A DNA stretch of 33,038 bases from a virus, in the IMG/VR virus record IMGVR_UViG_3300010370_000130, positions 1 through 33,038 of that record. One strand, given 5' to 3'. Position 1 is the first letter of the stretch. Each line of letters starts with the position of its first letter. This document shows, one piece after another, positions 1,969 to 33,038 of this stretch. The notes below the pieces were generated by a model that saw only the letters and a program-made list of their open reading frames with translations, was not told the DNA's origin and ran no database searches. The position numbers and the translations under genes were made by a program.

Positions 1969-2643
1969 ATGAAACATGTGGGTAAAATGAAAAATAACTC
2001 TGCTAGAGTAGCAGTAGTGTATCGAGTTCTTCCAGGCGAACCTAATAGTGCTTTAGTGGTAGGAACTACAGGTTTGCCAGACAGCCACCATGACTCATTA
2101 ATGAGTCTAATAGAAAGTGATTCAGGACAACAGGCATATGAACTTGCAGAAATCTTAGCAGTCAGGCGCTTTCCTGACGGCAATGTCATGCTTTCATATC
2201 TACATAGTAACGGGCATCTTAAAAAAGTTCCAACAAGCATGGTATTAATGACTCCAAATTCGGTCACTCAAATGCCGTTAGATCAGCTTAACGAATTAAT
2301 TGCCAAAGATAAAGGTCTTACTGTTGAAGAACTAGCTCTAAAAGAGGAAGGTGCAGAGCCTAAAAAAGCAGCACAATCTAAACCAGCCTTAACAGTTCCG
2401 CCGGCTGATTCTCAAGAAAATAAGAAATTAGTTGAAGAAGCACCATATCATCCAGGATATGAAGGAGCAGTTGTAGAACCTACAAATCAGTCCGAGCATA
2501 TAACTGCAAGTGATTTAAGGTCTATGGCAGACAAACTTTTTAAAGAGGCACAAGCTCTTCGTAGAAAAGCAGACGAGATCGAACCCCCAAAGGCTAAAGA
2601 AGCAAAACCAAAAAAAACTGTAGCAAAATCTGATGCATCCTGA
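1969..2643 (+). CDS. Phage protein with a charged, low-complexity C-terminal tail, function unknown
   Basis: This 224-residue protein has a folded-looking N-terminal part (about 10-100) with beta-strand patterns around VAVVYRVLPGEPNSALVVGT and RRFPDGNVMLSYLH. A helical segment follows (about 103-125). The tail (about 126-224) is rich in Lys, Ala, Glu and Pro, includes a helix near SDLRSMADKLFKEAQALRRK, and ends in KAKEAKPKKTVAKSD. A Lys/Ala tail like this is often disordered and can bind nucleic acid or a partner, but no function is recognised. The ribosome site AAGGAG sits 5 bases before the ATG at 1969 and is the strongest in the unit. The 3' end overlaps thyA by 11 bases. Confidence 0.78.
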   Translation: MKHVGKMKNNSARVAVVYRVLPGEPNSALVVGTTGLPDSHHDSLMSLIESDSGQQAYELAEILAVRRFPDGNVMLSYLHSNGHLKKVPTSMVLMTPNSVTQMPLDQLNELIAKDKGLTVEELALKEEGAEPKKAAQSKPALTVPPADSQENKKLVEEAPYHPGYEGAVVEPTNQSEHITASDLRSMADKLFKEAQALRRKADEIEPPKAKEAKPKKTVAKSDAS

Positions 2644-15500: not shown

Positions 15501-18500
15501 CTCTTCCGGAATAGGTAACAACAATCTTATAAACTTTACCATTTCTTAAATATGCTTCTGCCTGTGCAGGGGATGCAGGGTTTCCGCCAAATACTTGAAC
15601 AGTAGGTCTTGAAGTATATCCTTCTCCTCCACTACTAACAATTATTTCTTTAACCGTATAGGTGTAATTGTCAAACCAAGACTTCCACGGATATTCTGAT
15701 AATTTAGGATTACTCAATGAAGAAACTGTATCAATCCTATCTAAACTATCATTATAATAAGGAATAAGATCAAAGTCGGTAGTCAAAATTTCTGCATTTT
15801 CTAAGTTACCGTATGATCCTACAAAATTACGTATGTTTGTATGATAAGGTTTGATTTCTCTTACATAATTTTCATAGAATTCATTATTATCAAGTTGATA
15901 AACCGGTTTTTGATCTAACCTTTGAGTATTATTTTTTACCTTAACAAAGCTAGTCTTAAATGCCCAATCTAACAATTTTTGTTCTGTGAGAGCATATTTT
16001 ACCGCTTTGAAGAATAAGGTATTCCAATACCCCTTTAATCCATTGATAAAAATATTATCCTTTAAGCTCAATAAAATGTTCTTTATTTCTGTATCAGGCA
16101 ACTGATCATAAAGAGTTTCATCTAATGAAGCTTGGTCATAGGCTGTCTTGTCTATTAAAGAATTCCATAACTTGTCGTTCAACTTTATAGTGCCATTTTG
16201 TTTGAAAACAAGATTATAATTTGATTTAAAGTCACCCAATAATCCATCTTCTATTTTTTCAACGATAGCTTGGTTACCGTCACCCGAGTTCAATATTCGT
16301 ACATAATCTCCAGTGTTCAGACCTTGTATAAAGTCTAACTCCAAGGATGAATCTATAATATAGGTAATTGGTCTAACCTGATCAAAAACTTGAGAGCTCC
16401 AGTCTATATAATCCCAATATAAGGTAGTATTAAAGATTTGTGTTCTAACTTTATACCACGAATCTAACTGATAATTATAAAGATATTGAGACCATCTATT
16501 ATTAGAATTTTTATCTATAGCAACTATAACAGAATGAGGCCTTACTGTTAGGGTAGGGATAGTAGAAAATGAATGTCCGGAATTTACAACCTGGGCAGAA
16601 ATTATCCTGCCGGTTGAGTCTATTTCTGTTTTAATTTCAGCACTATTATTTGGAACAATAGAAACTTTAGGAGCGGTCAAATATCCAAATCCAGGATTTA
16701 TTATAGTAACTCCTACTATTTTTCCGTTGTTGACTACACATGAAATCTGTGCCTGAACATAATCAAAAGTTACTACATCTAATAACTGTGAATAATTATC
16801 AACTATAGTATCATACTCACCCAGCGATTCATCTGGAATTCTTTCAAAAGAATTTAATTTTGAAAAGTCATTTATACCAGTTATCTGATTTTGAGACAAT
16901 ATTGTATTAGCATACTCTATAACATTCCGAAGAGCCTCAACTCTATCTTTAAATAAGGTTTGTTGCGGTCTAATTCCTAGCCCATATCTGTTTCTAAAAC
17001 TTAATAAAGGATCTGGCACTATTCTGCCTTCTTCATCTCTACCAATTAAGCTGTCAATTAACTTCTTATTCAACAGCTCATGAGGCATTGTTTGAGAATC
17101 ACCTTCATGAATAAGCATCCATTCTGTATGTTTAGGAATTTGATTTTTTATAGTATCAAATGCTATATTGGCAGAAACTCTATCGTCTACGAGCTGTCCT
17201 TGAACGTTAGCAAATGCTAATGCATTTTTACTTATAATTTCAACAAACTCTAATCCCTGACTTAGAGGATTGGCAATATATTTAGAGACTTCTGAAGCTG
17301 TTGTTCTTCTATTTTTAGCTTTAGGCAATGTGACTTTGTTCTTGACCCAGAAATAATAAACATTTTCAAAGGATCCAGTAACGGTATTAAGAACTTGTTT
17401 TACAGAAACTACACTATTATCAGGATACTTAGGTTGTCCGCTTATACCTTTTGATAATCCGTACGAAGTATCAGCTTGTATAGACCATTCGCTTGGGAGT
17501 AGATCAGACTTTACCCATTCATATATATCAATGCTTGCACCAGGAAATAATCTACCCCAATTATTTTTCCTAAATAATTCATTTCCTTGCTCATACCAAA
17601 CATATTTGGCTGTGCTAAGATCCCACCATAATTCGCCAACATGTTCATCTAACCAATTAGTTTCAGTATCAACAACTGTGCTAGGTATGCCAATTGAATA
17701 TATTGCGGGATCAGATACTACTCTATAATTTAATTCTTGCTCAACTATTCCAGGAAGCTTGTTCTTTAACGGATCAAAAATATCTAGATACTCAATGACT
17801 TGATCTTTAGATGTATCTATAAGGGCAATTCTATTAAAGGTAGTAACATCAATTAATGGCTCTTGATATCTCAATTTCTTCCAGGTTGAAATTGAGTTAT
17901 CTAATTTTTTAAATTGATAAAATCTAGAATTATTTTGTAGTGAAGAAGAAATAGTATTATAGGGAGCTCCTACAAAAATACTGTTATTAGTAACACTGAT
18001 ACTACTTCCATATTTTCCACCAATTATCAAATCTTCTGGTAGTAGTTCGTCGGCCGCAACAAATGTTCCATTAAAATTATTGTATGCATAAACAGCACCG
18101 CTATCTGCTATAGAAGTTACAAATCTAGTTTGGTTATTATCAAACGTTGTTTGACCGGATCTCAGAGTAGTGTTTTGAAAAAACTCAACTACTTCAGATC
18201 GATTGGTCCCTAATGAACTTATCGATAATGTTTTTTCATCAGGGCTTAAACTAATTTTTTCAGCAAATATTAAATCCGTATTTGATAACGGATTTACAAT
18301 TATTTGAGTTAACGAATATTGACCTGAATTTTGTTTAGTGTAAACAGCGACTTTACCTCTAGTTAAAGGTCCATTCAAAGATTTCTTACTGCCAACGAAA
18401 ATATGTTTCCCTGTTTCAGAAACTTCTAGACTATATCCGTATTCGTCATCGATATCAAAAGGTGAATTTAAATTTTGTTTCCAAGAAAGATCTTGATCAA

Positions 18501-21500
18501 ATAATTGCACAATCCCTGTTCTACCTGTTGTATTATATTTAGGAGCACTTATAGCTATAACATCTCCCAAAGCTGACCCAGCTATGGCATATCCCCATTG
18601 ACTTCCAGGATTGAGCGTAATTGTTGAAGTCCCGTTAACTGAGACCGAACTTGTGAAAAATGATGCTATAGATGTTAGTGTTCCTAAACCAGAAATCTTA
18701 TAAGCAAATACCGTTCCAGTTCCTTGAAAAGAAATATTACCAGGAGCGCCAACTAAAAGAGTTGAAGTAGAACTAGCAGAAACCTGGTTAATATATAAAC
18801 TATGACCAAATCTAGAATTAGTATTAAGAGAGGCGTTATAAGGTTGAGAAATGGTTAAGAGTGTCACTTCGCCGGTATTCTTGCTATTTCTAGTGCTTAT
18901 CTTTACTAGTCCTTCTTTTTTACTTGTTCTTCCAGGGAATTCGTTTCCTACTATAGGAACCAAAACACTGGTAGATGTAGTTGCTCTTAATAGGCTAGCA
19001 TCAGGAGCACCGGCTACAAATAAATCTTTATTAACATCATAGGCCAACGAATATCCGAAATCCGTTCCTGTATTAATTTGACAATAAATTTTTCCGTTAG
19101 AATTTAAAACATAATCAAATCTAGCTAAAATATTTTCGTTGGCAAATTTTCTGTAAACTTGTATTTTTCCAAAATTGGTCGACAACTGCTCATGATAATT
19201 AGGCAATGAAACTAGAACAACATTACCTTTAGCTAATACACAAGAACCTAATCCTTGGTTAATTGGCGAAACATACCCTGAATATTCTGTAGCTGTTGAA
19301 TAATTTTTAACTTTTTGAAACACTGCCCACTTATTATTCTCATCTCTATCTACCCATAACTTAGAATTATAAGGAACATTAAACAAGTCTGTGGCGTTAG
19401 ACAACTCTTGATAATTTGAAAATCGTGCTTGTTCAAATTTGAATAATGTTCCGTATGCCATTAGAGGTTCATTTACAATTGTAGACAAGGACGATGCTAC
19501 AGTAAATTGTGTTAGATCGGAAATAGACTGAACAATATAAACTCCGTTAACCTGATGATTAAATCTAACAATCGAAACAATATCGCCTACGGAAAGATTA
19601 TGATGCACATCGGTTACAAATGTGATTTCACTTCCAGGACTACTTACATAAACTCCAGTGATCTTTGCTCTTTGATCTAGGTATCTATAAACTGTCCAAT
19701 CACCGTTTTCTAAAAACCCAACCCATACAGTAGTATTATTTGGAATTAACCCATTATTTGCTATATCTAACAGACTGTTTTTATTATATGCTGTAGTATC
19801 TACATCGTCAGGTCTTACATACCCCGCAGTTAATAGCTTAGTAGCATTATCATTAAAAGTTCCGTCAACGGTTATAAATGATTGAATAGGATTAAAATCG
19901 TTAGGCGCTATTAATATATCTGTGGCACTGGTATAATGAACTAACGACAAACTTTCTGATAGGGTATCTTTTCCAAACTTAACAACATATGGGTTCTCTA
20001 AGAATATACCTTCATTTAGCTTGACTTCAATTTCTTTAAAAGTCTCGAAACTTCCGTATGAACCAACCCTAAATGCCCACTCCTCATAAAGCTCTATAGA
20101 ATTGTCAGGTCTGCTAGACGAGACTTTTAATATATTATCTAATGCTCGAGCAGTTCCTTTATTTTTGATAAATCCTTGATAAAATTTATATTCAGAAACA
20201 GGATTGCCAATTATTTTTTCTAGATAATTTCTAGAAGTATAACCGGTGAGCCGTTGAGCAAGAGTCTGCTGTATTTCATCAAAATTATCAATATCCAAAC
20301 TATAAAAATCTTCAAACTGATTAATTTTGTAATCGAAGTTAGGTAGTAATTGAGATACCGGTTTTTGAGTTAATTGATCCCATTTATTATAATCAAATGA
20401 AGAATCATTAAGAATAACTTGATTAGCTGTATAATATATACTATTATAGCGAACTAAGTCTCCTACTTTATATTTTCTAAATTGCTTCCACTCTGTTATG
20501 TTTACATTATCATAAACAAATCCAGGACTGTTAACATCACCATTCCAGTCTTTGGTTCTAAATCCTGTTAATTTAATTCTCTTTTGTCTATATCCAGAAG
20601 CAGGATCATAAATTGTATCGTTAAAAATTGTTGTGTTATTGAATATAATTCCGTGCTCTTTTTGCACAGAATTTAACACTGCAAAAAATAACCCCTCTTC
20701 TGTATCTTTAGTGGTTATTACACAATAGCCATCTTGTCTAGAAATATCAAAATTTTCTACTGGGAATGCCTTGCCATCTGCCTTTTGTAAACTATATTCG
20801 TATTCATTAGAAAGAACATTATCCACAACAGAGTTAGCATACGAATATTTTAAATAATCAACAAACGGGCTTAACACAATTAAATTACCTTCTGCCCAAT
20901 TTTGTGTGCTCCAATATAAGAATTCTTTAGCAGAAAAATACCAATCCATAGTTTCTACTAGATCGGAATTTTGTGTATCGAAAATAAATCCTTGAGTCTC
21001 CAACCAGGCACCGTAGCCAATTATAAAATCATAGACTTCCTGAACAGATGAAAAAATTGTACCGTAAGGAATCCTAGAAACCTGCTTACTAAATTTTTTA
21101 GTTGTTAATGCTCTAGCACCACCCCTAGTTGGTAAACCAGGCATTTGACTGAAATAATCTGAATTAAATAACTTTGTAGCACTATGTGAAACAGTTACCC
21201 TATAGTATTTGTTATTATAAAATACAACTTGTCCTTGTTTATAAAACTTTGTTGTATAAGTTTCAGCAACTGCTGTATCTATAGAACTTAATCCACTATT
21301 TCCATCACTATAATTTGGCTTCCATACAGTGTAAGGCTCTTCCTTACCTCCAATAACAATTGCCTGCGACATTGAATCCTTTATAGGTAAAAGGTAATGG
21401 AAATGAGGGAAACTTCTATCATACCCCTTGATCATGTATCCGTTTACTGACTTTTGAATAACAATACCGGAAATTCTAGCAGATTTAATAGGATTGCTAG

Positions 21501-24500
21501 TGTTTAAGATTAAGGAATAGTCTTCTATAGGTAAATTGAACCCGGGCTTTGTAGACTGGGGATCTACCGCATTAATACGTATTTGAAGTTTTTCCTTACT
21601 AGTAAACCCTCCCAATTTATGAAATAAGTTTATATCAAAATAACTTAAATCTTGAGCTAATTGTAATTGATAATCTTGATAATATTTCATACCCCTTTCA
21701 ATTACAAAATTGCCAAAACCAGCGATTTGATCTGTGTTATATCCTTCAACTAATAATTTTTTAGGATTCAAATATAAGTCATCGGAATATACAACTTGAT
21801 CTAGTATATTCAAATGAATACGGCTAACGTCATATAATTTAGAAAGATAATCACTAGGATTTAAAAGAACTGAAGCAATGTTTAGAGCAAATGGAAAGTA
21901 GCTGCTATTTCTCCATGCTATTTCTGCCGGGCTGTAATCACCAAAAACCCAATCTGCTTTTTGTGTTGCTACAGTTGATCCTGTAATTTGTAGAATAATA
22001 GATTCATTTAACGCACCAGTCGATGTTACTGGAAGAATGGTGCTCAAGTTAGGTCGTTTATACTCGTCCCAGACTCCGGCTAAAGGACCATATCGAATGT
22101 ATCCATTTTCAATATCATCCCACATAAATGTATTACCTGAAGTATAAGGAGCAGCTCCATAATAATCCTCCCACCAATCTGGTTTGTCAGAGAATCCTAA
22201 CATTTCCCAAGGATGAGAATGAGGACGATCAGTATCGTAAAGAAATTTAAATATTCCTCTCCAAGTTCCTGATAGCAATGTTTCATTGATTTGACCTTTC
22301 CAATTATAGGTTCTATAATTTCCAGGTTCGTATGTGTCATTTTTTGTAATATTAATATTATATATAGATGCCCATTTTCCATATTCAGTTAGTAAGATAT
22401 CATTAATCTCATCTTTAGAATATTGTGACTCTCTAAAATAACTAGGCTCTAATGATTTAATATCAAACAATCTACGATTATATTCAACCTTAATATTATT
22501 ATAAATTCTTTTTTCTAATTCTAAAATTATATCATCTCTATAATCACCATAGGCACGCATTAAACTACCGTCGTGCCCTCTGATCATTTGAACAGGATCA
22601 TCTGCATACCTATCATCCATTATGATCGCAGGTTCAAATTTGGGAAAAATGCCTAACTTAGACGGCGTAAAAGGTATAAAGCTTCCTAATGTGCTGTTAT
22701 ATACATGGAATTCTATTTTATCACCGGAATTTAATGATACCAAAAGTGTAACAGTTCCAGAAATACTAGAAAAAGTATAATCCTTATTATGCACTAATAA
22801 TTCTGAATTTTTGTATACGTATACTGCACGATAACTTAAAGATTCTAAATCGAAATCAATCCCAAGAGGATACTCTACAACATTAGTTGATGCAATTGTG
22901 TAAGACCTTACTATTTTAGAAGTTCCATAACCTATCATGTCTGATCTATAAAACGAACCTCTAACTGTGGAATTACGATTAAGTTCTGCTATAACTTCAT
23001 CTAAAGATCCAGATAAATCATTTTGGTTTACAACATTATCTACTTCTCTTAAAAAATTTAACTTCCATTGATTGTAATGATTGCAGACAAATCTCAACGA
23101 GTCTATGACATTATGATGTTTTTTTCCTAAAAAGATATTAGAAAAACATAAAGGATTCTCATTTAAAATTAATCTAGTTCCAAACTTAGCATAATCATAG
23201 ATGTCTCTCAGGTTACCTGATCCTGGAAATTCTCCTAAAAATCTAATATCCCTATCTACCATCGAGGAAACATGATCAGACAATTGGCTATATGTAATTT
23301 CAGAGATCGTTTCATTTAATGGATTATTTGTAGCGCCTATAGGGGCTTCGTAATAACCGTTATCATTCGGAGCTTGATCTGAAATAATTTTTAAAACAAT
23401 CGAATCATTGACATTTAATGGAGAATCGAAAGTTATTTTCAACACATCATTAACTAACGTAGCTGTAGAATTAGCAAACTTATAATTTACAGATGCAGAA
23501 TGAGAAATAATATTTGAAATAGGTCTATTGAAACAAGACACCTCCACAGTGTTAGTTGTCTTTGTAGCGACTAATGTTTCGATTATAGGAATCCTATAGT
23601 CCGCCTTGTCTCTCCAAACATTAACTAATTCAAATCCATCATTATTAAAATTGTTTTTTCTTAAAAATGTTGTGGCTGTTTTTTTCGCACTGCTTACATT
23701 ATTCTCAATAACATTAAATGAATCAGTTGAAAAATAATTTTTAAAAACATAACTACCTACACCTGCGCCACTAATTTCACTTGAAATTGGAAACCCTAAA
23801 ACACTATCGTTAGCTCCGGACCCTAACTTATAACCAAAAATCTTATTTCCAGAAAAGTCATTTTCAATAAAGCTATTTTTAAAACTATCACCCTGATTAT
23901 CGCAAAGGTCAAACAGTGGAGGTTGATTTAGTTGCTCATGCTGCTGCGATATGACCCATTGCTTCTCAATCTCCGAATAATAAAAGCTTTTACCTGTATA
24001 AGAATTACCATAATTTACAGAAACACTAGTAAGATCAGTAACTCCGCTATCATTCGCTTCTACTAAACTTATTAACCCTGTAACAGGAGCAAAGGAAACA
24101 ACATAAATTTTATTTCTGTTATTAATGTTATTATCATTGTTAAAAATTATGCGCCAACCTTGTTTAATCAGAACTCCATCAATATAATAACCAAGTTGAT
24201 TGTTTATAGTTTCTAACGGAAACTCAGTTGAATTGTCGATAACATCAACATTTTTAATAGAAATTCTTCCAAAGTTATAAAGCTGAATATTTGGCTTAAA
24301 TTCGATAATAGGTCTTTTCGCTCTAAAGTCATAATCAAAGGAGGCAGTAGTATTATTAATTTGTGCAGTTAGCTCTATAACATCTTTATGAAACCAACGA
24401 TTATATCTTGACCAAGGATTGAGGTCTTTACTAGATTTATTAATAGTAATATATTCAGGTGTTAATGCTAATCGAGCATCACTATCGAAACCATATTGAT

Positions 24501-25194
24501 CAAATCCATCACTATCAAATGTTTCATTATAAATCGAAGCCAATGCTCCGTTAGGTTCTAACAAAGAAAAGTCAACCAACCGTATGCTTGACCCAACTCC
24601 TTCTACAATATATTCCTTATCTTGACTAATTGTTTCAGATTCTGAAGTATAAGTTGCAGTAAAAACTACCTTCATACCATTACTAAGAGCATGGCCGTTT
24701 GGCATTATATAACTAGCTGCCCCTACAATATTTGTAAAAATATTTGTTGACGTAGAAATCGTTATAGAATCCGGACCTACAGGTAGCCAATAGTATTGAT
24801 CATAATTAATCAACTTATCCCAATCAATTAACGGGTCAAATGAATAAAACTGACTTCTAAAAATCCTATCGATATTAGAATTATTACCGCCCTGATTATA
24901 TATTTCATTGATTAAGTCATCTAATGCTACTACATCAGTAATATTAGAAATTGCATCTCTAAAAACAGCAGCAGGTTCTAATTGATAATGAGACCTAATA
25001 GAACTAGATTCAGAAATATATGTATCTGTTACAGGGTTATAATTAGGAGTTATCTTAGTCCCAACATAACCATCTATCCTTTCCAACTTAGGTGATTGAA
25101 TAAATTGGTCAATGGTGCTAGACAAAAACTTTTTGTTTTTATCAGTTTGAAGATAACTTGGTAAAAATTGAGCGGATTTCTTGTTATCAGACAT
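12514..25194 (-). CDS. Giant modular baseplate/tail structural protein (T4 gp7 position)
   Basis: One uninterrupted frame of 4226 codons. It follows gp6, where T4 has gene 7 (1032 residues), but is about four times longer. The N-terminus (SAQFLPSYLQTDKNKKFLSS, then DGYVGTKITPNYNPVTDTY) is of a kind I associate with giant structural proteins of T4-like aquatic phages. Parts seen by eye: IDWDKLINYDQYYWLPVGP near 120-140; two carbohydrate-binding-like segments (about 1310-1350 and 1562-1607); a seven-bladed FG-GAP-like propeller (about 1970-2430); a GELWWD segment (about 2505); GxGY repeats (about 2825-2880 and 3180-3245); three Calx-beta-like domains (about 3670-4020); and a Gly-rich tail after a beta domain. 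No signal peptide or membrane segment is evident. The start is one base after the gp6 stop (TAATATG) and lacks a Shine-Dalgarno. Likely a baseplate wedge scaffold that also carries adhesion modules; this is inferred from position and domains. Confidence 0.82.
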   Translation of the reverse strand: MSDNKKSAQFLPSYLQTDKNKKFLSSTIDQFIQSPKLERIDGYVGTKITPNYNPVTDTYISESSSIRSHYQLEPAAVFRDAISNITDVVALDDLINEIYNQGGNNSNIDRIFRSQFYSFDPLIDWDKLINYDQYYWLPVGPDSITISTSTNIFTNIVGAASYIMPNGHALSNGMKVVFTATYTSESETISQDKEYIVEGVGSSIRLVDFSLLEPNGALASIYNETFDSDGFDQYGFDSDARLALTPEYITINKSSKDLNPWSRYNRWFHKDVIELTAQINNTTASFDYDFRAKRPIIEFKPNIQLYNFGRISIKNVDVIDNSTEFPLETINNQLGYYIDGVLIKQGWRIIFNNDNNINNRNKIYVVSFAPVTGLISLVEANDSGVTDLTSVSVNYGNSYTGKSFYYSEIEKQWVISQQHEQLNQPPLFDLCDNQGDSFKNSFIENDFSGNKIFGYKLGSGANDSVLGFPISSEISGAGVGSYVFKNYFSTDSFNVIENNVSSAKKTATTFLRKNNFNNDGFELVNVWRDKADYRIPIIETLVATKTTNTVEVSCFNRPISNIISHSASVNYKFANSTATLVNDVLKITFDSPLNVNDSIVLKIISDQAPNDNGYYEAPIGATNNPLNETISEITYSQLSDHVSSMVDRDIRFLGEFPGSGNLRDIYDYAKFGTRLILNENPLCFSNIFLGKKHHNVIDSLRFVCNHYNQWKLNFLREVDNVVNQNDLSGSLDEVIAELNRNSTVRGSFYRSDMIGYGTSKIVRSYTIASTNVVEYPLGIDFDLESLSYRAVYVYKNSELLVHNKDYTFSSISGTVTLLVSLNSGDKIEFHVYNSTLGSFIPFTPSKLGIFPKFEPAIIMDDRYADDPVQMIRGHDGSLMRAYGDYRDDIILELEKRIYNNIKVEYNRRLFDIKSLEPSYFRESQYSKDEINDILLTEYGKWASIYNINITKNDTYEPGNYRTYNWKGQINETLLSGTWRGIFKFLYDTDRPHSHPWEMLGFSDKPDWWEDYYGAAPYTSGNTFMWDDIENGYIRYGPLAGVWDEYKRPNLSTILPVTSTGALNESIILQITGSTVATQKADWVFGDYSPAEIAWRNSSYFPFALNIASVLLNPSDYLSKLYDVSRIHLNILDQVVYSDDLYLNPKKLLVEGYNTDQIAGFGNFVIERGMKYYQDYQLQLAQDLSYFDINLFHKLGGFTSKEKLQIRINAVDPQSTKPGFNLPIEDYSLILNTSNPIKSARISGIVIQKSVNGYMIKGYDRSFPHFHYLLPIKDSMSQAIVIGGKEEPYTVWKPNYSDGNSGLSSIDTAVAETYTTKFYKQGQVVFYNNKYYRVTVSHSATKLFNSDYFSQMPGLPTRGGARALTTKKFSKQVSRIPYGTIFSSVQEVYDFIIGYGAWLETQGFIFDTQNSDLVETMDWYFSAKEFLYWSTQNWAEGNLIVLSPFVDYLKYSYANSVVDNVLSNEYEYSLQKADGKAFPVENFDISRQDGYCVITTKDTEEGLFFAVLNSVQKEHGIIFNNTTIFNDTIYDPASGYRQKRIKLTGFRTKDWNGDVNSPGFVYDNVNITEWKQFRKYKVGDLVRYNSIYYTANQVILNDSSFDYNKWDQLTQKPVSQLLPNFDYKINQFEDFYSLDIDNFDEIQQTLAQRLTGYTSRNYLEKIIGNPVSEYKFYQGFIKNKGTARALDNILKVSSSRPDNSIELYEEWAFRVGSYGSFETFKEIEVKLNEGIFLENPYVVKFGKDTLSESLSLVHYTSATDILIAPNDFNPIQSFITVDGTFNDNATKLLTAGYVRPDDVDTTAYNKNSLLDIANNGLIPNNTTVWVGFLENGDWTVYRYLDQRAKITGVYVSSPGSEITFVTDVHHNLSVGDIVSIVRFNHQVNGVYIVQSISDLTQFTVASSLSTIVNEPLMAYGTLFKFEQARFSNYQELSNATDLFNVPYNSKLWVDRDENNKWAVFQKVKNYSTATEYSGYVSPINQGLGSCVLAKGNVVLVSLPNYHEQLSTNFGKIQVYRKFANENILARFDYVLNSNGKIYCQINTGTDFGYSLAYDVNKDLFVAGAPDASLLRATTSTSVLVPIVGNEFPGRTSKKEGLVKISTRNSKNTGEVTLLTISQPYNASLNTNSRFGHSLYINQVSASSTSTLLVGAPGNISFQGTGTVFAYKISGLGTLTSIASFFTSSVSVNGTSTITLNPGSQWGYAIAGSALGDVIAISAPKYNTTGRTGIVQLFDQDLSWKQNLNSPFDIDDEYGYSLEVSETGKHIFVGSKKSLNGPLTRGKVAVYTKQNSGQYSLTQIIVNPLSNTDLIFAEKISLSPDEKTLSISSLGTNRSEVVEFFQNTTLRSGQTTFDNNQTRFVTSIADSGAVYAYNNFNGTFVAADELLPEDLIIGGKYGSSISVTNNSIFVGAPYNTISSSLQNNSRFYQFKKLDNSISTWKKLRYQEPLIDVTTFNRIALIDTSKDQVIEYLDIFDPLKNKLPGIVEQELNYRVVSDPAIYSIGIPSTVVDTETNWLDEHVGELWWDLSTAKYVWYEQGNELFRKNNWGRLFPGASIDIYEWVKSDLLPSEWSIQADTSYGLSKGISGQPKYPDNSVVSVKQVLNTVTGSFENVYYFWVKNKVTLPKAKNRRTTASEVSKYIANPLSQGLEFVEIISKNALAFANVQGQLVDDRVSANIAFDTIKNQIPKHTEWMLIHEGDSQTMPHELLNKKLIDSLIGRDEEGRIVPDPLLSFRNRYGLGIRPQQTLFKDRVEALRNVIEYANTILSQNQITGINDFSKLNSFERIPDESLGEYDTIVDNYSQLLDVVTFDYVQAQISCVVNNGKIVGVTIINPGFGYLTAPKVSIVPNNSAEIKTEIDSTGRIISAQVVNSGHSFSTIPTLTVRPHSVIVAIDKNSNNRWSQYLYNYQLDSWYKVRTQIFNTTLYWDYIDWSSQVFDQVRPITYIIDSSLELDFIQGLNTGDYVRILNSGDGNQAIVEKIEDGLLGDFKSNYNLVFKQNGTIKLNDKLWNSLIDKTAYDQASLDETLYDQLPDTEIKNILLSLKDNIFINGLKGYWNTLFFKAVKYALTEQKLLDWAFKTSFVKVKNNTQRLDQKPVYQLDNNEFYENYVREIKPYHTNIRNFVGSYGNLENAEILTTDFDLIPYYNDSLDRIDTVSSLSNPKLSEYPWKSWFDNYTYTVKEIIVSSGGEGYTSRPTVQVFGGNPASPAQAEAYLRNGKVYKIVVTYSGRGYLTYPTIYINPSPTGQSATASAVLENETTRKNIITMKFDRYSRRSEIGDLTVDFSTVTDGINAEYELPYLANPDELLTSATLDKKLVLSADYKIVHFSKDDNGYKKNFSKFVFVNYLPKAGKTLRVIYQKSINLFNAIDRINNYYNPTAVMPGKDLPLLIKGLEYPKAHLQGLPFNYSTPIMGFGQLSTLPEDWYNYTAEQKVGWFNLNNITPTVLRNYGGLDEILPYLEQYGYMYADELINGSKSGNIYDMGGFNDYISDYARARIISTASISTTTLYLNTTTGIVPGQVLNFLNTDRLKVRTDTVVVSVNPSLNSIQISSPLYKIVRAIATSTVTGSNITFQTSIPFYGTLRKGDLIEISGITTSGFDGLYVINSTTNNIFTVISTQTLAATDAVIPYNTVTNVSSASVRAYSLLETIEPRQRLIGDYNFFVGPCVFPKFTITGSPAIMEGYTATFTISGTDVFYGNGRTFAYRLSGQVTDSDFTSGSTSSWTVITTTANSLPLTFITTATTSTVETTETAIISIASWLTTSTANYKVVASTSFVVRDRPIGSPIYYIRTYNQDGTLISTASEGDVIKVEITGTNIDFGSDGRVFHVVSSGSYITSADLVSGQIVTEGILAYSQDDFPLIFNIGIAEDLTTEYTENIIFRLGTYLNVLENTYTGFTTSTQVEIIDTSVTPPVTYSLTASPSLVSEGTSTKITLTTTNLPVGTVVPFTISTVSGTISLADLTTSSYTGSFVMVQGAAGYQVSTATFAINPDGIYEGNEIFRLMLTNHTSTYVDVTIADQITNAYGQYQSKVYSLANNAATAYASVKILTNGEFEFAKLEGPDADSLSIIELVPDPQYWTDDASGTSGYYVRARIDPTGVWTGNVQFTGPGFASTVTSLTAPQQGNWVAISTAASTPWYASAQYSGVNAAAAFNLVVEIKESSGSSTVLSVGTYSMYVSSVATAITPTGGGGVIDTVFGGGSGSLETGPNLEDFSNVEFFTDLQ
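13140..14185 (-). repeat. Three Calx-beta-like Ig-fold domains in the giant protein
   Basis: Three tandem stretches of about 90-105 residues share a pattern of an SEG/MEG/SEG turn followed by a strand, a DLTSG/DFTSG-like step and a late TEN/EGNE strand. Examples are ITGSPAIMEGYTATFTISG, ISTASEGDVIKVEITGTN and SPSLVSEGTSTKITLTTTN, with ends ETTETAIISI, TTEYTENIIFRLG and GIYEGNEIFRLML. This matches the Calx-beta fold pattern, often found in extracellular adhesion proteins and able to bind calcium. Acidic calcium-binding residues are only partly evident. Confidence 0.6.
15460..15650 (-). repeat. GxGY-type beta repeats in the giant protein (second cluster)
   Basis: Two short units, IVSSGGEGYTSRPTVQVFGG and VTYSGRGYLTYPTIYINP, repeat the pattern hydrophobic-x-x-SG-x-GY-x-x-x-P-x-hydrophobic, joined by a segment rich in Ala and Lys. 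A related pair lies at 16560-16715. Such units are common in phage structural proteins, probably as small beta modules; a ligand is unknown. Confidence 0.6.
16560..16715 (-). repeat. GxGY-type beta repeats in the giant protein (first cluster)
   Basis: The units IINPGFGYLTAPKVSIVP and VVNSGHSFSTIPTLTVRP follow the same pattern as the cluster at 15460-15650. The second is degenerate, with SF in place of GY. The two clusters are about 300 residues apart. Confidence 0.55.
17905..19280 (-). repeat. Seven-bladed FG-GAP-like beta-propeller in the giant protein
   Basis: Seven successive units of about 55-70 residues repeat an (F/Y/W)G-x-S/A core and a later VGAP-like strand: GLGSCVLAKGNVVLVSLP, FGYSLAYDVNKDLFVAGAP, RFGHSLYINQ...LLVGAP, QWGYAIAGSALGDVIAISAP, EYGYSLEVSETGKHIFVGS, a weaker unit with ISLSPDEKTLSISSLG, and KYGSSISVTNNSIFVGAP. 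Each is followed by a G-x-V-x-V/F-Y-type strand. This is the integrin-alpha type FG-GAP pattern. The seven-unit count supports a closed propeller, a common protein- or glycan-binding platform. Confidence 0.7.
20374..20508 (-). other. Carbohydrate-binding-module-like segment (CBM5/12 style) in the giant protein
   Basis: The segment EWKQFRKYKVGDLVRYNSIY, then YTANQVILNDSSFDYNKW, follows the W-x-Y-x-x-GD-x-V-x-Y-x-x-x-x-Y-x-A ... W layout of small chitin/cellulose-binding modules. Aromatic positions are kept. It is short and the ligand is unknown, so the name is a pattern match only. Confidence 0.5.
21150..21265 (-). other. Second carbohydrate-binding-like segment in the giant protein
   Basis: TTKFYKQGQVVFYNNKYYRV repeats the Y-x-x-G-x-V-x-Y-x-x-x-Y-Y pattern of the segment at 20374-20508, followed by a short loop and SDYFSQM. 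The closing Trp is replaced by Tyr/Phe. It is about 250 residues upstream of its counterpart in the protein. Confidence 0.4.
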
Positions 25195-25195
25195 A

Positions 25196-28100
25196 TTATA
25201 GATCAGAAGTTACTATGTTCGAGGCCTTAAGTTGGCTAGCTGTAATAGCATCGATAATCTCTATATTATCAACGGTGGCGGCACTTATAAACAATTCATT
25301 TCCTAGACAACTTATCTCATATAAACTTCCAAAATCGCTATTATCAATTGGGACAATAATAAAATTAGTAATGTCAGGAGTGAGCAAATTCATTACATAT
25401 GTCGACAATTCACTAAAATAAAAAGTTTGCCCAAATTCCCAATTTTCGATCGCAAAAAATTCATTAATAGCTGTAAAAATTTTTGTCTTTAATTCGTTAT
25501 CATTGGTAATTCTATTTGGATTTCTAACAGCCTTAAATTTGGCTTTTAATGACGAATTTGCTTTATCTCCGAAAAGTATCTTATACTTTACTGGGTGGTA
25601 AACAAGCTCATCACTAATTGCTTTAATAGGATTTAAGTATTCACTATAATTTTGCTCTAAATCATTGCTTGTTGGAGCATTAGGTTCACTAGATGAGTTC
25701 CCTAATAGGTAACTTCTAAATGCAGTGTCATAACTTGTAGTTAAAACATAGATATCGATTAGGTTCGATTTGCTAGGATCAATCCTTCTTTGATTTCCAC
25801 TGTTATGAACATAGTGAAACTTAATATCGCTCCGACCCTTACGACCAAAATACATGTCTGTATAAACAAATGCACTTAAAGAAGATGACCAATACTTTAC
25901 AACTTGTAAATCAATATCAGTAAAGAAAAATAATTGATTATCTACCTTTTGAGCATTTGTCACTGATTGCTCATTTACAACAACAATAATATCTTCTCTG
26001 GTAATGCTGTAAGTAGATTTTGCGGTGTTATATTTAAAAAAGACCCAGGTGTCACCGACTGCATTAATAAAGGAATCAGGATTGGTTATTTTTAAGGAAT
26101 TATTATAGTCGTATAAACTAACCTTTACTCTAGTAGGCTGAGAAAAACCATCTGCTTCAACTACAGAATCGTTTATTTGCCAATTATTTCCAAAGCCAAT
26201 GGTTTCAGTTGTAAAAGTAGATGCGTTTGGAACAAGGTTAATAGGTAAAATTTCTATTTTATCTTTTACAATTGAGTTAGTTACATAGTCATAATTTATC
26301 GATGTTTTATCCACAAAGAACGCAGTTTCCTTTTCGCTTTCAAAAATATAATTTACTGTTCTTGCAGTAACTTTATAATTCTTTCCAGTCCAAACAAAAT
26401 TTATAATCCATGAAGAATCTAAAGCCTCATCCTCTAAATTTCCCTGATAATTTAATGAAAATATATCTAATAAATTTAAGTTTGAATTTGTAATTATTTC
26501 CCAGTCTCTTGTTTCTAGATTGATAGTTAATCCAAAATTCTTAAAAGTTGTTGATATGTTAGCTATTTCATTTTCAATAGGATAACCTAACACATTGGGA
26601 TATCTAGGAACTATCTCTACAGGTATAGCTCCATCCGGAACCTTTCCTGAGAAAATCAACGGACCTGTTCCATCATCTAACAAATCTGCACCATTTCCTA
26701 CAATCTTTGCAACAGCTACCCAAATATGATCTGTCCCTCCAGAGGGTATTTCGTTAGTATACGAAACCCTAGAAGAAAACCCGGATTGGTAAAGACTCTG
26801 ATATGCCTTAGAAGCTGTATTGCAACGAACAGTGTCATATTCCAATGCTGCTCTAAAGAAAGCCTCTCTAGCACTAATGTCATCTATACTTAGGTTATAA
26901 ATCAAGGATTGATCAACCCAAAATTTTAATCCATCAAAATCTGGATCTCTAAATAAACCGTATTTTGTCCCTAATGTTTGAGTAGTATATGCAGAATTGC
27001 TAGTGTAAAGAGGTAAAAATCTCACAGTGGCTATATAATAGGTATTATAATTGTAGTTTCCTCTAGCTTTTTCTACAAAATTTATTAGATCAAATCCTAA
27101 AACATCATTGGCTATAGCAGGTATATTCTTTAAAACGTTGTTTTCATCGAAATATTTTCCAATAGGGGCATTAAACCTTACTAGACTATCAACCGAGATG
27201 TATCTAAGTTCGCTTTCAGTATAATCATAACCGACTGCATATGATCCCATACTATCATAAAAATAACCTCTACTCTGTCCAGGAACAGCATTGACTTCTT
27301 TAAAGGTAAGCCCTAATCCAGATAAGTTAATTCTTGAATAATTTTCATTATAGAAAGATTTCATCTCCGGACTAGCAATCATTGTTGCAACTAGATTTTT
27401 AACAATCCCTAAAACTTGACTTCGATTTACATACTCAAACTCAAAATTAAGATCTTTATCTTCTTTATATAAAATTCCATCATTAGCAAAGATATTAGTC
27501 TTTCCATAATTTCCGCTGACATCACTGAAATCAAAATACTTACTAACACCGCTTGAGACTCTATTGATACTTTTAACCTTAAGTATGTCACTACCGGCAT
27601 TAAGAGGAGCAATATTATAGTCTTCCCCGGTAATCATTCTATTCTGTGTGTAATAAGTTTGAGGAGCTTTGGTTTGAATAGAAGAATTAGACTCAGATCC
27701 AGCACTGTTAGATACAGTATACTGAAGGCTTAGTGTTACTTGAAGTGTATGTTGCTGTCCAACTGCATTTTGATAAGGAACATTTATTATTATTCCGCTT
27801 AATTGTTCAGGTTTTATAGAATATGTTAGCCCATTACTTTGTCTATAAAATACCTGAAAATCTCCTTTAGGAAGGTCTCCAAAGATACCGTCTGCAAAGT
27901 TTAAATCAATTTGATCATCTACTCTTGATGTTACAGCGTATAATGTTCTAGTATTCTTATTAACACTATTATAAATTACATTATTTCCAACAACACTTGG
28001 AACTTGAGTCCATAATTTCTCATAGTTTCCTTGTAGCCCTAATTGCCATAACCATATATCTGTATTATTGATGTTACTAGCATTTAATCCGATGATTTCG

Positions 28101-28918
28101 TTTGGCACAGGATTTGAAATATTAAAGGAGCTAAACCCTAGAGTTCCTTGCCTAAAATGAAAGAAAAATCCAGTATTGATGCTAGACGATCCTTGATTAT
28201 CATTCTTGTATATAAACGACAGACTATTTCCGGGTGCAGGAGCTGCTTCGTAAACATAATCTTTGCCTTCAAACGTTGCTGACACAACTTCAAAGCTCAT
28301 ATTGGTTCCATTTATTGACTTTACAAAATTGTAAAGAGGAACGTCTTCATTTATACTGTTTAGGTTATATAACTCAGTTTCTATTCCACCAATGACTTTT
28401 TTAGAAATAGACTTTCCAAAATTAGTGGACATAGAGGAATTTAAAATTGTTATGAACTGCTGATACCAATTCTCATTAGTGGGATCATTCCAAATTATTG
28501 TTGTATCTGCAAGATTAGTTCCATTTACATCATAAACATTATCAGAAGTGTTTAATGCTGTAACTTTTAAAAACCCGTGAGCAGGAACGTTTCTGCTAGC
28601 ATTATATCCTATTAACTGTGCTAATTTTAAAACACTATCTCTACGCTGTGCAGTTTCTAAGAAATTTTCTCTAGCATTAAGATCAATTCTAAAACTTAGG
28701 TTTTGTCCTAAGAAAGCAATTACATCAATTAAGGCAATATATTCGCTTGATTCAATAAAATCATTAAAATCTTCAGGATAGTTTTCCTGAATATAAGCGA
28801 TCATGGTCCGTCTTAATGTTTCAAAATCATAGCTTTTGAAATCAGCATTTTTGAAAGATTGGTATATCTTGGTCCAATCTTCACTGGCTAGTAGTTTACT
28901 GGTAGTTGATGGAATCAT
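25196..28918 (-). CDS. gp6: Baseplate wedge protein gp6, enlarged
   Basis: Gp6 joins neighbouring wedges into the ring of the T4 baseplate. The N-terminus (DWTKIYQSFKNADFKSYDF; FIESSEYIALIDVIAFLGQN; ARENFLETAQRRDSVLKLAQ) and the C-terminus (AINEFFAIENWEFGQTFYFS; FGSLYEISCLGNELFISAAT) are of the gp6/baseplate-J type. At 1240 residues it is nearly twice T4 gp6 (660). The extra length lies in the middle, including a segment (about 640-715) that looks like DUF4214 (GLFRDPDFDGLKFWVDQ, then REAFFRAALEYD). A perfect late octamer TATAAATA lies at 28943-28950, 24 bases before the ATG. The leader has no clear Shine-Dalgarno. Its stop is one base from the giant gene's start. The gp6 identity is confident; the inserted parts are less well understood. 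Confidence 0.93.
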   Translation of the reverse strand: MIPSTTSKLLASEDWTKIYQSFKNADFKSYDFETLRRTMIAYIQENYPEDFNDFIESSEYIALIDVIAFLGQNLSFRIDLNARENFLETAQRRDSVLKLAQLIGYNASRNVPAHGFLKVTALNTSDNVYDVNGTNLADTTIIWNDPTNENWYQQFITILNSSMSTNFGKSISKKVIGGIETELYNLNSINEDVPLYNFVKSINGTNMSFEVVSATFEGKDYVYEAAPAPGNSLSFIYKNDNQGSSSINTGFFFHFRQGTLGFSSFNISNPVPNEIIGLNASNINNTDIWLWQLGLQGNYEKLWTQVPSVVGNNVIYNSVNKNTRTLYAVTSRVDDQIDLNFADGIFGDLPKGDFQVFYRQSNGLTYSIKPEQLSGIIINVPYQNAVGQQHTLQVTLSLQYTVSNSAGSESNSSIQTKAPQTYYTQNRMITGEDYNIAPLNAGSDILKVKSINRVSSGVSKYFDFSDVSGNYGKTNIFANDGILYKEDKDLNFEFEYVNRSQVLGIVKNLVATMIASPEMKSFYNENYSRINLSGLGLTFKEVNAVPGQSRGYFYDSMGSYAVGYDYTESELRYISVDSLVRFNAPIGKYFDENNVLKNIPAIANDVLGFDLINFVEKARGNYNYNTYYIATVRFLPLYTSNSAYTTQTLGTKYGLFRDPDFDGLKFWVDQSLIYNLSIDDISAREAFFRAALEYDTVRCNTASKAYQSLYQSGFSSRVSYTNEIPSGGTDHIWVAVAKIVGNGADLLDDGTGPLIFSGKVPDGAIPVEIVPRYPNVLGYPIENEIANISTTFKNFGLTINLETRDWEIITNSNLNLLDIFSLNYQGNLEDEALDSSWIINFVWTGKNYKVTARTVNYIFESEKETAFFVDKTSINYDYVTNSIVKDKIEILPINLVPNASTFTTETIGFGNNWQINDSVVEADGFSQPTRVKVSLYDYNNSLKITNPDSFINAVGDTWVFFKYNTAKSTYSITREDIIVVVNEQSVTNAQKVDNQLFFFTDIDLQVVKYWSSSLSAFVYTDMYFGRKGRSDIKFHYVHNSGNQRRIDPSKSNLIDIYVLTTSYDTAFRSYLLGNSSSEPNAPTSNDLEQNYSEYLNPIKAISDELVYHPVKYKILFGDKANSSLKAKFKAVRNPNRITNDNELKTKIFTAINEFFAIENWEFGQTFYFSELSTYVMNLLTPDITNFIIVPIDNSDFGSLYEISCLGNELFISAATVDNIEIIDAITASQLKASNIVTSDL
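26774..27001 (-). other. DUF4214-like insert within gp6
   Basis: Within the enlarged middle of gp6, GLFRDPDFDGLKFWVDQ, SIDDISAREAFFRAALEYD and SKAYQSLYQSGFSSRV follow the DUF4214 layout: an R-x-P-D-x-x-G-L-x-x-W core, a helix, and an F-x-x-S/A-x-E-Y helix, then a second Y-x-x-L-Y start. DUF4214 is usually found in secreted or adhesin-like bacterial proteins. Confidence 0.5.
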
Positions 28919-29419: not shown

Positions 29420-31744
29420 TTAACCACCGCTACCGGTTTTTATAGGATTACCACTGCTATCAGTTACAATACCGCCACTACCCGAACCTAATACACCGCC
29501 GCTAAATTGGGCGTAAAAGCATTCATAAAACCCTTTTTTCTTAGCCTTAATATCAGGGGTATTGAATCCAACTGCCTTGCAGGCTGCTTCGAAATAATTG
29601 GAACTATTTTGATCAACTTTAACCCTGTCTAGCATATATTTTACACTAACTTCAGCAGCAATTGTAGGATCATTTAATAATTTAGGATTAGCAACTAGAT
29701 CCTGTCCTACCATGCCCCCGTATCTAGTATAATTTGATCTACCAGTTAGCTGAATATAACCCCTTCCTATAAACTTGGCTCCGTCGCCTTCTTGCGTATT
29801 GCCTAGCCCTTTGCCTTTAGAGGTTTGGTATCCATATAAAAATTCAGGTAAACTGTTATTAGGATTGCCTGCATATTTTTGTGCCAATGCTTGATCACCT
29901 TTAAACACACTAGGAAAGACTTGTAACAATCTCGGTGCGCTATAGTTAAAGCTTTCTTCGACTAATTTCCAACCGCACTCCCCGCCGGCTATCCCTAACA
30001 ATGCTGCTATAGCATAAGGGCTTGTTACACCATACTTTTTACAGGCTGCTTTAAGGGCATTAATTCCTGCTTGAGCAGCTGAATTATTAATCTGCTTGGC
30101 GTATTCTGGACTACATGTTCCCGGTTTAACTTGTGGGTCATTCGAAGATTGTTGCGCACCTTCGCCTGCACCCCCAGCAGCACTATTTGGATTTGGTGGG
30201 ATACCGCTGCTGGTCCTATCTGCTAGGCTGACATCTGTAGCAGAGGGACTAAATTTTTCAGGATTTATATTTTCATGTTGATCCCAAGGCTCATGAGTAG
30301 GAACACGTTGCATAATACTTACTATAGGGGATTCTTCTCTATAAAAAATATTATTTTCCCAACCATTTTCTTTTTTTCTATTAGGCAAATTAAATGTTGG
30401 TAAATCTGGTGGAGTCTCTGCTTTAGTGGCCATAGTAGGGGCTGCGGCAGAAGGCCCATTAAGATCTATTCTACTGCCACTAAGCAAAATATCATTATTA
30501 GCTCCAAGGTTTAGATTCGCTCCGCTACCTATGCTAACATGGCTTTCGCCGGAGAGATCAATACCGTCATTTCCACTAGCAATAAAGCTCTTGTTTGATA
30601 AAAACTCCATATTATTTTCTGAGGAAACCTTTAATCCATCGCTTACGTTGAGGTCTAAATCTTTCATGACAGAAATTTTAGAATGATCGTCTACTGTAAG
30701 ATAATAATATCCACTGACATTAGTTTCCATTTTACCGTTGGCTTTGATATTAATATCTCTACCTGCCTCAATATTAATATCTCTATCAGCTCTAAAATTA
30801 AAGTCATTTTCACTATGGATACTAACTGAATCTTTTGTATAGATATCTAGCTTACCATTGCTGGTCATTTCTATCCATGCCGTACCTTTGCTGTTTCCTA
30901 TGTAGATTAAATCGCTGCTATTATGCAACAAAATTTGATGTCCTGTCCTAGTCCTAATTCTTACTAATTCATTTAGCCCATCTTTGTCACCGTCATCCAT
31001 TACAAATGTTGTTCCACCTAAACGGCTTACATAAGCTTCTACACCATCACGCTGAAGTGTTTTATAACCGATCTTACCTGTCTTAGCATTTGGGCTTGAA
31101 TCTATAGGACCAGGAGTGCTTATACCAAAAACTGAACTAGGAACTTCTCTTCTAGCGCCGCTTGATGTTACTCCTCTTATATTATCTTTTAAAAGACCCT
31201 GGTCTAATAACCTATCAGCAAAAGGATGCACAGGTTTAGGCTTACCATCTGTGCTAGCTCCTTCTTTTAAACTTGCCTTATGTCTTTCTGCTATAGGAAG
31301 AATAGTTGTTTGATATCTCCTTGCTTGCTCCCCTGTCATTAATACTTCAGAGCTTGCAGCGATACCAGGAACCATGTGATTTTGAAAAGGTGCTTGAATA
31401 CATCCAAACCAATAACATTGATTCGGATCTCCTCCAATAAAAATCACCATGACCGTAGCGCCTACATCAGGAGGAATCATCCAAAATCCGTAGCTCTTCT
31501 GGACATCGTTAAACGATCCAGGATTCTTACCTTCAAATCTTTCTGAAGTATAGCCCATAAAAGGACTACAATAATTGGCTACATAAGTTTCGCTTTGAAA
31601 CTCAATATTACTAGGAATAGTTTTTATTAGAGCCACTTCTAACCTTCCCATATACATAGGATCGAGATGGTTAGTTACTTCAGCTAGAAACGGACCGGGT
31701 GAGGGTGGTGGGCTCCTTTTTCTTGATTCAAAATTTGCACTCAT
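29420..31744 (-). CDS. gp5: Baseplate hub needle gp5 with C-terminal GH19-type lytic domain
   Basis: T4 gp5 forms the membrane-piercing needle and carries a lysozyme. Here residues 15-130 are the OB-fold hub part (FLAEVTNHLDPMYMGRLEV, YGFWMIPPDVGATVMVIF, GDPNQCYWFGC). Residues about 255-430 form a VgrG-like beta-helix of short repeats such as RDINIEAGRDINIKANG and GANLNLGANNDILLSG. A linker with VPTHEPWDQHENINP follows. Residues about 545-750 resemble a GH19 chitinase/muramidase domain with AALLGIAGGECGWKLVEESF (first acid likely Glu589) and FIGRGYIQLTGRSNY (658-672). The His of the usual H-E pair is replaced by Gly588. In T4 the lysozyme is of another family (GH24) and lies between OB fold and helix, so this layout differs. 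The start is one base after the stop of the gene before it (TAATATG); GAGA lies about 10 bases upstream. No cleavage data can be inferred. Confidence 0.92.
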   Translation of the reverse strand: MSANFESRKRSPPPSPGPFLAEVTNHLDPMYMGRLEVALIKTIPSNIEFQSETYVANYCSPFMGYTSERFEGKNPGSFNDVQKSYGFWMIPPDVGATVMVIFIGGDPNQCYWFGCIQAPFQNHMVPGIAASSEVLMTGEQARRYQTTILPIAERHKASLKEGASTDGKPKPVHPFADRLLDQGLLKDNIRGVTSSGARREVPSSVFGISTPGPIDSSPNAKTGKIGYKTLQRDGVEAYVSRLGGTTFVMDDGDKDGLNELVRIRTRTGHQILLHNSSDLIYIGNSKGTAWIEMTSNGKLDIYTKDSVSIHSENDFNFRADRDINIEAGRDINIKANGKMETNVSGYYYLTVDDHSKISVMKDLDLNVSDGLKVSSENNMEFLSNKSFIASGNDGIDLSGESHVSIGSGANLNLGANNDILLSGSRIDLNGPSAAAPTMATKAETPPDLPTFNLPNRKKENGWENNIFYREESPIVSIMQRVPTHEPWDQHENINPEKFSPSATDVSLADRTSSGIPPNPNSAAGGAGEGAQQSSNDPQVKPGTCSPEYAKQINNSAAQAGINALKAACKKYGVTSPYAIAALLGIAGGECGWKLVEESFNYSAPRLLQVFPSVFKGDQALAQKYAGNPNNSLPEFLYGYQTSKGKGLGNTQEGDGAKFIGRGYIQLTGRSNYTRYGGMVGQDLVANPKLLNDPTIAAEVSVKYMLDRVKVDQNSSNYFEAACKAVGFNTPDIKAKKKGFYECFYAQFSGGVLGSGSGGIVTDSSGNPIKTGSGG
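29495..30112 (-). other. GH19-like muralytic domain of gp5
   Basis: This part of the needle protein matches the pattern of phage and bacterial GH19-type lysozymes/chitinases (predicted chitinase, COG3179-like): a helix with the catalytic Glu (GGECGW), a second Glu followed by FNYSA, and the signature GRGYIQLTGRSNYTRYG. It closes with SVKYMLDRVK and a Cys-containing end. It is likely to cut peptidoglycan during injection, but activity is not shown. Confidence 0.8.
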
Positions 31745-31745
31745 A

Positions 31746-33038
31746 TTATGTCTCTAGAGGGGGCATACCTAAATTTTTTCTTATAATAGGATTATCACCG
31801 GTATAGGGTGGATTATTCGAATTCTCAATATTGTTTACTAATTTATCCAAAGGACTTTTACCTGCACCCCTACTTCCGAAAACACTTGAAACAGTGCCAC
31901 TCAACGATTGATCTCTAATAAATGTATCTCCTGTTAGAGGAGTTAGCTGTGATCTAGCACTTTGTATTCTTCCTGAATATGATTCTATATCACTACTATT
32001 GCTAAAAACAGTATTATTCTTATAAGGGTTAAAATTTGCAGCACCGACATTTTTCATTGCAGAGCTTAAATCCATCTTAGATACCATTGAGCCAGATATT
32101 CGATCCACACTAGAAGCACCATACAAATTTGCTAAAGCTCTAATCCCACCACCAGCTACTACCTTATCCATATACTCTTTATTTGTAGAGGGTTGGGGTG
32201 CTGTAGTTCTAGGTTGAGATTTAGGAAGATTTTCTAGATCACTGGAATTCATAAATTCTAATAATGTTCCTTCCTTCACTGACTGTGTAAGATTTAAATC
32301 GTCAGGAGTATCTGAATAAGAAAGGATGTTTTTACTAACCTTACTTTGAAATAATGATCCTAGTCCAGAAACTTTACTAGCATCTAAACCTATATTAGAT
32401 GCAATAGCCATAGGATCGGCCTTTGACCCTAACCTAGATTTAATAAAACTGCCTGCATTATTGAGAATATTTGCCGATTGATAATCGTTTAGCCCCGTGA
32501 TTGATTCTACATTTAAATTAGATAGTGTTTTGGAATATGCGTTATTATAACTCACATCCCCAGTAAAGGTTTCAGATTGACTTAATAATATTTTAGCACC
32601 TTCTCCTATCCCAGATCCTTGATTTAAAACATTATTATTTTTTAATTGACTTCCTAGCACATTATCAGCTAGGCTTTTTACCTTATCTTTATCAGTATAA
32701 GACAACAATGATCCTATTGTTTGTTTTATCTTGGATGAGTTTTCCAAACTTGTTTGACTTAGCTCTGCAATACCTAGCTGACTTAGTCTAATGCTTCTAG
32801 AAACATCATTAGGTAAAGGTTTACCTATAGGACTGCTTCCGGCCTGCAAACTTCCTTCTAATGGATAATTTCCAAAAGATTGCACCTGTTGGTCTCCTCC
32901 TAGCCCTCCAACTGCTCCTGTAAAATTTGTATCTGGGCTAGGCAGTCCTCTTTCAACAACAGCAAGATCGGCTTCAAGTCGTTTACCGTAATCCTGTGCT
33001 TGTGTTTCTTCAGGTATGACTCTGTCTTTTGGATTGTC
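31746..33038 (-). CDS. Structural protein upstream of gp5, 5' end cut by the window
   Basis: The frame is open to the right window edge, giving at least 431 residues. Upstream of the GTG at 32883-32885 the frame continues without a stop through EETQAQDYGKRLEADLAVVE and GLPSPDTNFTGAVGGLGGDQ. The visible protein is Ser/Asn/Gly-rich with helical stretches (DKDKVKSLADNVLGSQL; GGGIRALANLYGASSVDRIS) and a Pro-rich end (NPPYTGDNPIIRKNLGMPPL). No known domain is recognised. Its place before gp5 suggests a hub- or tail-associated protein. The GTG has a strong GGAGGAG 8 bases before it and would give 379 residues, so an internal or true start there cannot be excluded. The stop is one base before gp5. 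Confidence 0.72.
   Translation of the reverse strand, partial: DNPKDRVIPEETQAQDYGKRLEADLAVVERGLPSPDTNFTGAVGGLGGDQQVQSFGNYPLEGSLQAGSSPIGKPLPNDVSRSIRLSQLGIAELSQTSLENSSKIKQTIGSLLSYTDKDKVKSLADNVLGSQLKNNNVLNQGSGIGEGAKILLSQSETFTGDVSYNNAYSKTLSNLNVESITGLNDYQSANILNNAGSFIKSRLGSKADPMAIASNIGLDASKVSGLGSLFQSKVSKNILSYSDTPDDLNLTQSVKEGTLLEFMNSSDLENLPKSQPRTTAPQPSTNKEYMDKVVAGGGIRALANLYGASSVDRISGSMVSKMDLSSAMKNVGAANFNPYKNNTVFSNSSDIESYSGRIQSARSQLTPLTGDTFIRDQSLSGTVSSVFGSRGAGKSPLDKLVNNIENSNNPPYTGDNPIIRKNLGMPPLET
32894..32900 (-). promoter_or_regulatory. Strong Shine-Dalgarno-like sequence before a possible internal GTG start
   Basis: GGAGGAG on the minus strand lies 8 bases before GTG 32883-32885. It is the best ribosome site in the whole minus-strand block, yet it also encodes Gly-Gly codons of the longer open frame. 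It decides between a 379-residue protein and a longer one cut by the window edge. Confidence 0.45.

Follow-up and report, generated by a model that had tools for sequence, protein, structure and literature searches.

A predicted tail needle with a C-terminal GH19 domain, and the variety of enzymes found behind its conserved core

The window analysed here is a 33,038-nucleotide stretch of viral DNA (IMG/VR record IMGVR_UViG_3300010370_000130, positions 1 to 33,038). On its minus strand lies a gene for a gp5-like needle protein, set among baseplate genes. The features of this locus are as follows.

31746-33038, minus strand: gene directly upstream of gp5, end part only, open at the window edge
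29420-31744, minus strand: gp5-like needle/spike gene, whole ORF of 774 aa (phrog_13211, E 7e-49; Foldseek)
31385-31690, minus strand: OB-fold domain, about residues 19-120 (Phage_base_V match and model strands)
30449-30883, minus strand: octad-repeat beta-helix, about residues 288-432 (DUF2345 match, lag-8 periodicity)
30269-30301, minus strand: PTHEPWDQHEN motif behind the helix, residues 482-492, almost unchanged across 37 aligned relatives
30110-30232, minus strand: flexible linker rich in S/G/P/A/N, residues 505-545 (about 41 aa), where the enzyme types of relatives diverge
29501-30109, minus strand: GH19 muramidase-type domain, residues 546-748 (Pfam, PHROGs, phmmer, model, Foldseek, VIA-align)
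29978-29980, minus strand: predicted catalytic glutamate E589, aligned with SPN1S E49 and PaGH19Lys E51, Glu in 51/51 sequences
29954-29956, minus strand: predicted catalytic glutamate E597, aligned with SPN1S E58 and PaGH19Lys E60, Glu in 51/51 sequences
29423-29482, minus strand: C-terminal tail peptide GSGGIVTDSSGNPIKTGSGG, residues 755-774, a conserved tail motif of low pLDDT
28971-29408, minus strand: gp25-like baseplate wedge, the next gene (GPW_gp25, E 3e-11)
25196-28918, minus strand: gp6-like baseplate wedge (phrog_10646, E 2e-275)

The initial annotation had ended the gp5 gene at 29495, at about residue 750 and 75 bases short of the true end at 29420, a boundary with which some 24 residues, including the conserved tail GSGGIVTDSSGNPIKTGSGG, are lost. 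Homologues of gp25 and gp6 follow directly downstream, the baseplate neighbourhood characteristic of the gp5/VgrG spike family. The gene upstream, which in relatives encodes a protein of about 1000-1300 aa, is possibly a gp27-like hub, judging from its place and size; the label is a positional one because the part inside the window has no family match in Pfam or PHROGs. Between the gp6-like gene and the tail-fibre genes lies an ORF of 4226 aa (12514-25194, minus strand) that has no Pfam match, and a similarly huge protein of PA5oct (about 3857 aa), encoded at the same place, is marked in its record as found in virions. Elsewhere in the window, on the plus strand, there is a thymidylate synthase gene (2633-3517; Pfam E 1.7e-105) and a gene at 184-1446 whose PHROG name, 'HNH endonuclease' (phrog_1314), clashes with its Pfam assignment as a DUF2201 metallopeptidase with a VWA-like domain (E 2.5e-42).

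The needle core is recognisable by several routes. The family phrog_13211, 'baseplate hub subunit and tail lysozyme', spans residues 19-417, and Phage_base_V matches residues 84-115 (E 1.4e-4) with 22.5 bits, just below the Pfam cut-off of 23.8. Strands run through the OB region of the AlphaFold model at residues 19-26, 34-39, 53-58, 97-102 and 110-115, although parts of this region are poor in a model built on 37 aligned sequences. Thus the N-terminus has the OB fold of the gp5/VgrG spike family. The beta-helix gives a DUF2345 match below the Pfam cut-off (E 2e-5) and a pronounced octad periodicity, with a hydropathy autocorrelation of 0.65 at lag 8 and 0.55 at lag 16, values reached in none of 2000 shuffles; across 110 relatives the mean at lag 8 is 0.47. 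It counts against this reading that the monomer model does not resolve the beta-helix as a helix. Foldseek matches the gp5 model to T4 gp5 (1k28) as well as to spikes of VgrG proteins and of contractile injection systems.

Behind the linker stands a GH19 domain. It scores 31.1 bits against Glyco_hydro_19 (Pfam cut-off 25.5), matches the endolysin family phrog_181 over residues 551-703 (E 1e-35), and by phmmer finds the GH19 endolysins 8p8e, 9ms6, 9eoi and 4ok7 in the PDB. The AlphaFold model of residues ~551-748 mostly has pLDDT values of 85-93, with dips near the end. Structure comparison with VIA-align, which bears directly on whether this is a GH19 fold at all, gives Z scores of 16.3-19.8 against the phage-type GH19 structures 7r6s (19.8), 9eoi (17.8), 8p8e (17.4), 4ok7 (16.9), 9ms6 and 9ms7, and only 10-13 against chitinases. 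Both the GH19 type and the order proposed in the initial annotation (OB fold, beta-helix, linker, GH19) are therefore borne out, the latter by Pfam, PHROGs and the octad periodicity.

The catalytic pair of this family has been assigned to E49/E58 in SPN1S and to E51/E60 in PaGH19Lys, an active muramidase (PMC8547705, PMC12329726). Besides E589 and E597, residues Y637, N649 and R661-G662 are kept in all 51 non-redundant sequences, and Q665 and T667 in nearly all. With the same catalytic residues retained across 51 non-redundant sequences, the observation is not a matter of chance. One position differs: Gly588, present in 51/51, stands where GH19 endolysins have His48 of the +1 subsite, which is 93% conserved among them (PMC8547705, PMC12329726). 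The fold and catalytic pair are thus shared with SPN1S (4ok7), PaGH19Lys (9eoi) and KTN6 gp46 (8p8e), but these are stand-alone lysis enzymes, whereas here the domain is fused to a needle and His48 is replaced by Gly.

Taken as a whole, the protein is very probably a gp5/VgrG-family needle at the centre of a contractile tail, with a tethered, predicted GH19 endolysin-type peptidoglycan muramidase. T4 gp5, which Foldseek matches at E 3e-3 (1k28), shares the OB fold, the octad beta-helix, a tail lysozyme and gp25/gp6 neighbours. Its GH24 domain, however, lies between OB fold and helix (quoted in PMC3622015), ahead of the latter, while the domain here is C-terminal and of GH19 type; no GH24 match was found in the gp5 of the window with Pfam or PHROGs. 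The initial annotation had presented the arrangement as a different solution from that of T4. The difference holds, but not its novelty, as C-terminal placement of the enzyme is already known from the genome papers of RaK2 (gp078, with beta-helix and C-terminal lysozyme, unlike T4; 2013, PMC3622015) and CBB (gp5, likewise ending in a lysozyme, with a possible M23 domain in the centre; 2017, PMC5259590). What lies at this locus is a real and well-supported GH19 variant of that published arrangement.

The gp5 cores of RaK2 (gp078), 121Q (gp587), CBB (CBB_240) and GAP32 (GAP32_234) are homologous to the present one over about residues 20-445, with 27-29% identity, and in both groups the enzyme stands behind the beta-helix. 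In the RaK2 type it is GH24 (RaK2 763-870, 121Q 765-882), possibly with an M23-like domain ahead of it, whereas here it is GH19. Other isolated jumbo phages with a homologous core differ again: XacN1 has SLT_3 behind the helix, Atu_ph07 a lysozyme-like stretch and a trypsin-like domain, and PA5oct and SCTP-2 no enzyme. C-terminal enzymes are common among the related jumbo phages examined. The gp5 of Agrobacterium phage Atu_ph07 (L003, 3905-6502) ends in the trypsin-like peptidase domain (E 6e-17), and that of Sinorhizobium phage Phosso (L088, 3414-6548) has a similar end behind a very long glycine-rich linker.

A GH19 domain is also found inside the gp5 of Synechococcus phage BUCT-ZZ01, with 37% identity to the one here, but in the T4 position, with the OB fold before it and the helix after it (261-315 by Pfam); this protein has in addition a weak C-terminal M15-like match. 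Tail proteins of Goslar, FLC9 and FishSpeaker carry GH19 domains related to that of the present gp5, and phiKZ gp181 is described in a review as a virion protein that resembles a needle and bears a peptidoglycan glycosidase; all of these are much larger tail proteins, in which no gp5-type core was seen here. Evolved VgrGs of type VI secretion, such as VgrG3, resemble the present protein in being needles with a C-terminal peptidoglycan hydrolase, which is pesticin-like or lysozyme-like and varies between strains (PMC9927483). They are bacterial weapons with immunity genes, however, rather than a phage entry device.

A scan of viral contigs gave 76 loci whose match extends into the GH19 part, and another four (L081-L084) that match the core only. 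The latter carry a lytic transglycosylase-type domain, which in L081 matches PDB 9udh (E 1.2e-33). When other cores were used in additional scans and the C-terminal parts were clustered, 110 cores of the lineage were obtained: 51 with GH19-A, 11 with GH19-B, 15 with a transglycosylase, 11 with a lambda-lysozyme-like domain (in L184 with hits to 1am7 and 3d3d at E about 1.7e-27), two with VanY/M15 by a weak Pfam match, one with another M15-like domain assigned by eye, and 19 with none. Some of the long C-terminal parts in distant marine relatives look like coiled domains or domains of no recognised kind, so that not all are enzymes. A possible SGNH/GDSL hydrolase domain lies beside the wall-cutting enzyme in L138 (weak Pfam match) and L149 (by eye).

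On the tree of the 110 cores, a quick one with SH-aLRT support only, the enzyme type changes 21 times, as counted on that one tree, against a possible minimum of six. The independent domain capture that had been suggested for this gene is thus borne out, and it has been repeated. Sister pairs display the exchange directly: in one, L153 (transglycosylase) and L234 (lambda type), the cores are 74% and the gp25 proteins 87% identical, while the tails are unrelated. The point of divergence is in the linker, shortly behind PTHEPWDQHENxNP...TD, and PTHEPWDQHEN itself is retained with any enzyme type behind it and also with none. At the far end, the tail motif TDSSGNPIxTG occurs in 47 of 51 GH19-A, some GH19-B and five of 15 transglycosylase-type relatives, and is absent from the lambda types. 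The position behind the helix probably serves as an exchange slot, in which the same core takes different wall-cutting enzymes or none. It is tempting, though somewhat less than an even bet, to suppose that in this lineage the needle end is a true slot of this kind, where recombination in the linker swaps several unrelated enzyme families behind a fixed core with its standard motif, and the enzyme adapts the phage to the wall of its host. The GH19 type in this position and the repeated exchange of enzymes appear to be new; no paper describing such exchange was found in the open-licence literature searched.

Two further ideas on origin were considered and set aside. That the phages' own endolysin gave rise to the GH19 of gp5 is disfavoured by an identity of about 31-37% and by separate tree groups, with the AU test borderline (p 0.058). 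GH19-A and GH19-B, as separate captures, do form separate starred groups, yet a single joint clade is not rejected (p 0.35).

GH19 domains are typically endolysins, as the phrog_181 and PDB matches illustrate, and here a flexible linker precedes the domain; T4 gp5, moreover, is nicked during maturation. The C-terminal domain might accordingly be freed by proteolysis, or be translated from an internal start, and act as the lysis endolysin, but this seems improbable. Relatives possess a separate GH19 endolysin, about 205-211 aa long, located elsewhere and about 31-37% identical to the gp5 GH19 of the window; it is known from the contigs of relatives, the window being a 33-kb fragment. In five contigs (G001, G006, G014, G015 and G019) it occurs together with a gp5-GH19. 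Where its surroundings were inspected (L329 and L331-L334), it adjoins small membrane and lipoprotein genes that resemble an Rz/Rz1 spanin pair and a holin, as judged by sequence appearance rather than by profile. The internal-start route was checked as well: in the window's gene the linker has no start with a Shine-Dalgarno-like site, ATG codons are absent from residue 478 up to the GH19 core, and only two of 90 relatives have candidate starts. Because the separate endolysin co-occurs in relatives and an internal start was not found, the gp5 GH19 most likely acts at entry, not lysis.

It is also conceivable, if rather unlikely, that the domain is catalytically weak and mainly binds peptidoglycan or guides the needle, a view prompted by the invariant Gly at the +1 subsite. 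Against it stand the conservation, full or nearly so, of the residues listed above and the filling of the same slot by several unrelated catalytic families. As the source is a metagenomic contig, the fusion might in principle be an assembly artefact, but dozens of independent contigs show the full-length architecture at 43-84% identity, and the alternative enzymes recur across several metagenomes; recurrence in independent samples excludes it in practice.

For an entry enzyme the following course can be envisaged. Three gp5 copies would trimerise, and on sheath contraction the beta-helix would pierce the outer membrane; the three tethered muramidases would then cut glycan strands at the puncture, and through the opened peptidoglycan the tail tube could reach the inner membrane. 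From the order of the chain only, it is reasonable to place the enzyme at or near the needle tip, as had been proposed, although a linker of ~41 flexible residues would also allow it to fold back along the needle. In the record of PA5oct, the gp5 homologue is marked as a virion protein detected by mass spectrometry. Counting against this reading, RaK2 gp5 went undetected by that method (PMC3622015).

With these relatives, the odd lysozyme position of RaK2 turns from a lone curiosity into a counted pattern of one core, many enzymes and repeated exchange. They form a natural series in which one can ask if the range of cell walls that a phage can cross is limited by its tail enzyme. They also advise caution, in that the label 'baseplate hub subunit and tail lysozyme' covers quite different enzymes.

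Genes for PAAR tip proteins were also sought. In the large relatives none matched PF05488 or PF13665. With a home-made PAAR profile, a gene beside gp5 was found in four of 24 enzyme-less relatives and in none of the 115 whose C-terminal part is long (Fisher p 7e-4, a value inflated by kinship of the sequences). In L259, L286, L303 and L316 the small PAAR-like gene lies directly behind the enzyme-less gp5.
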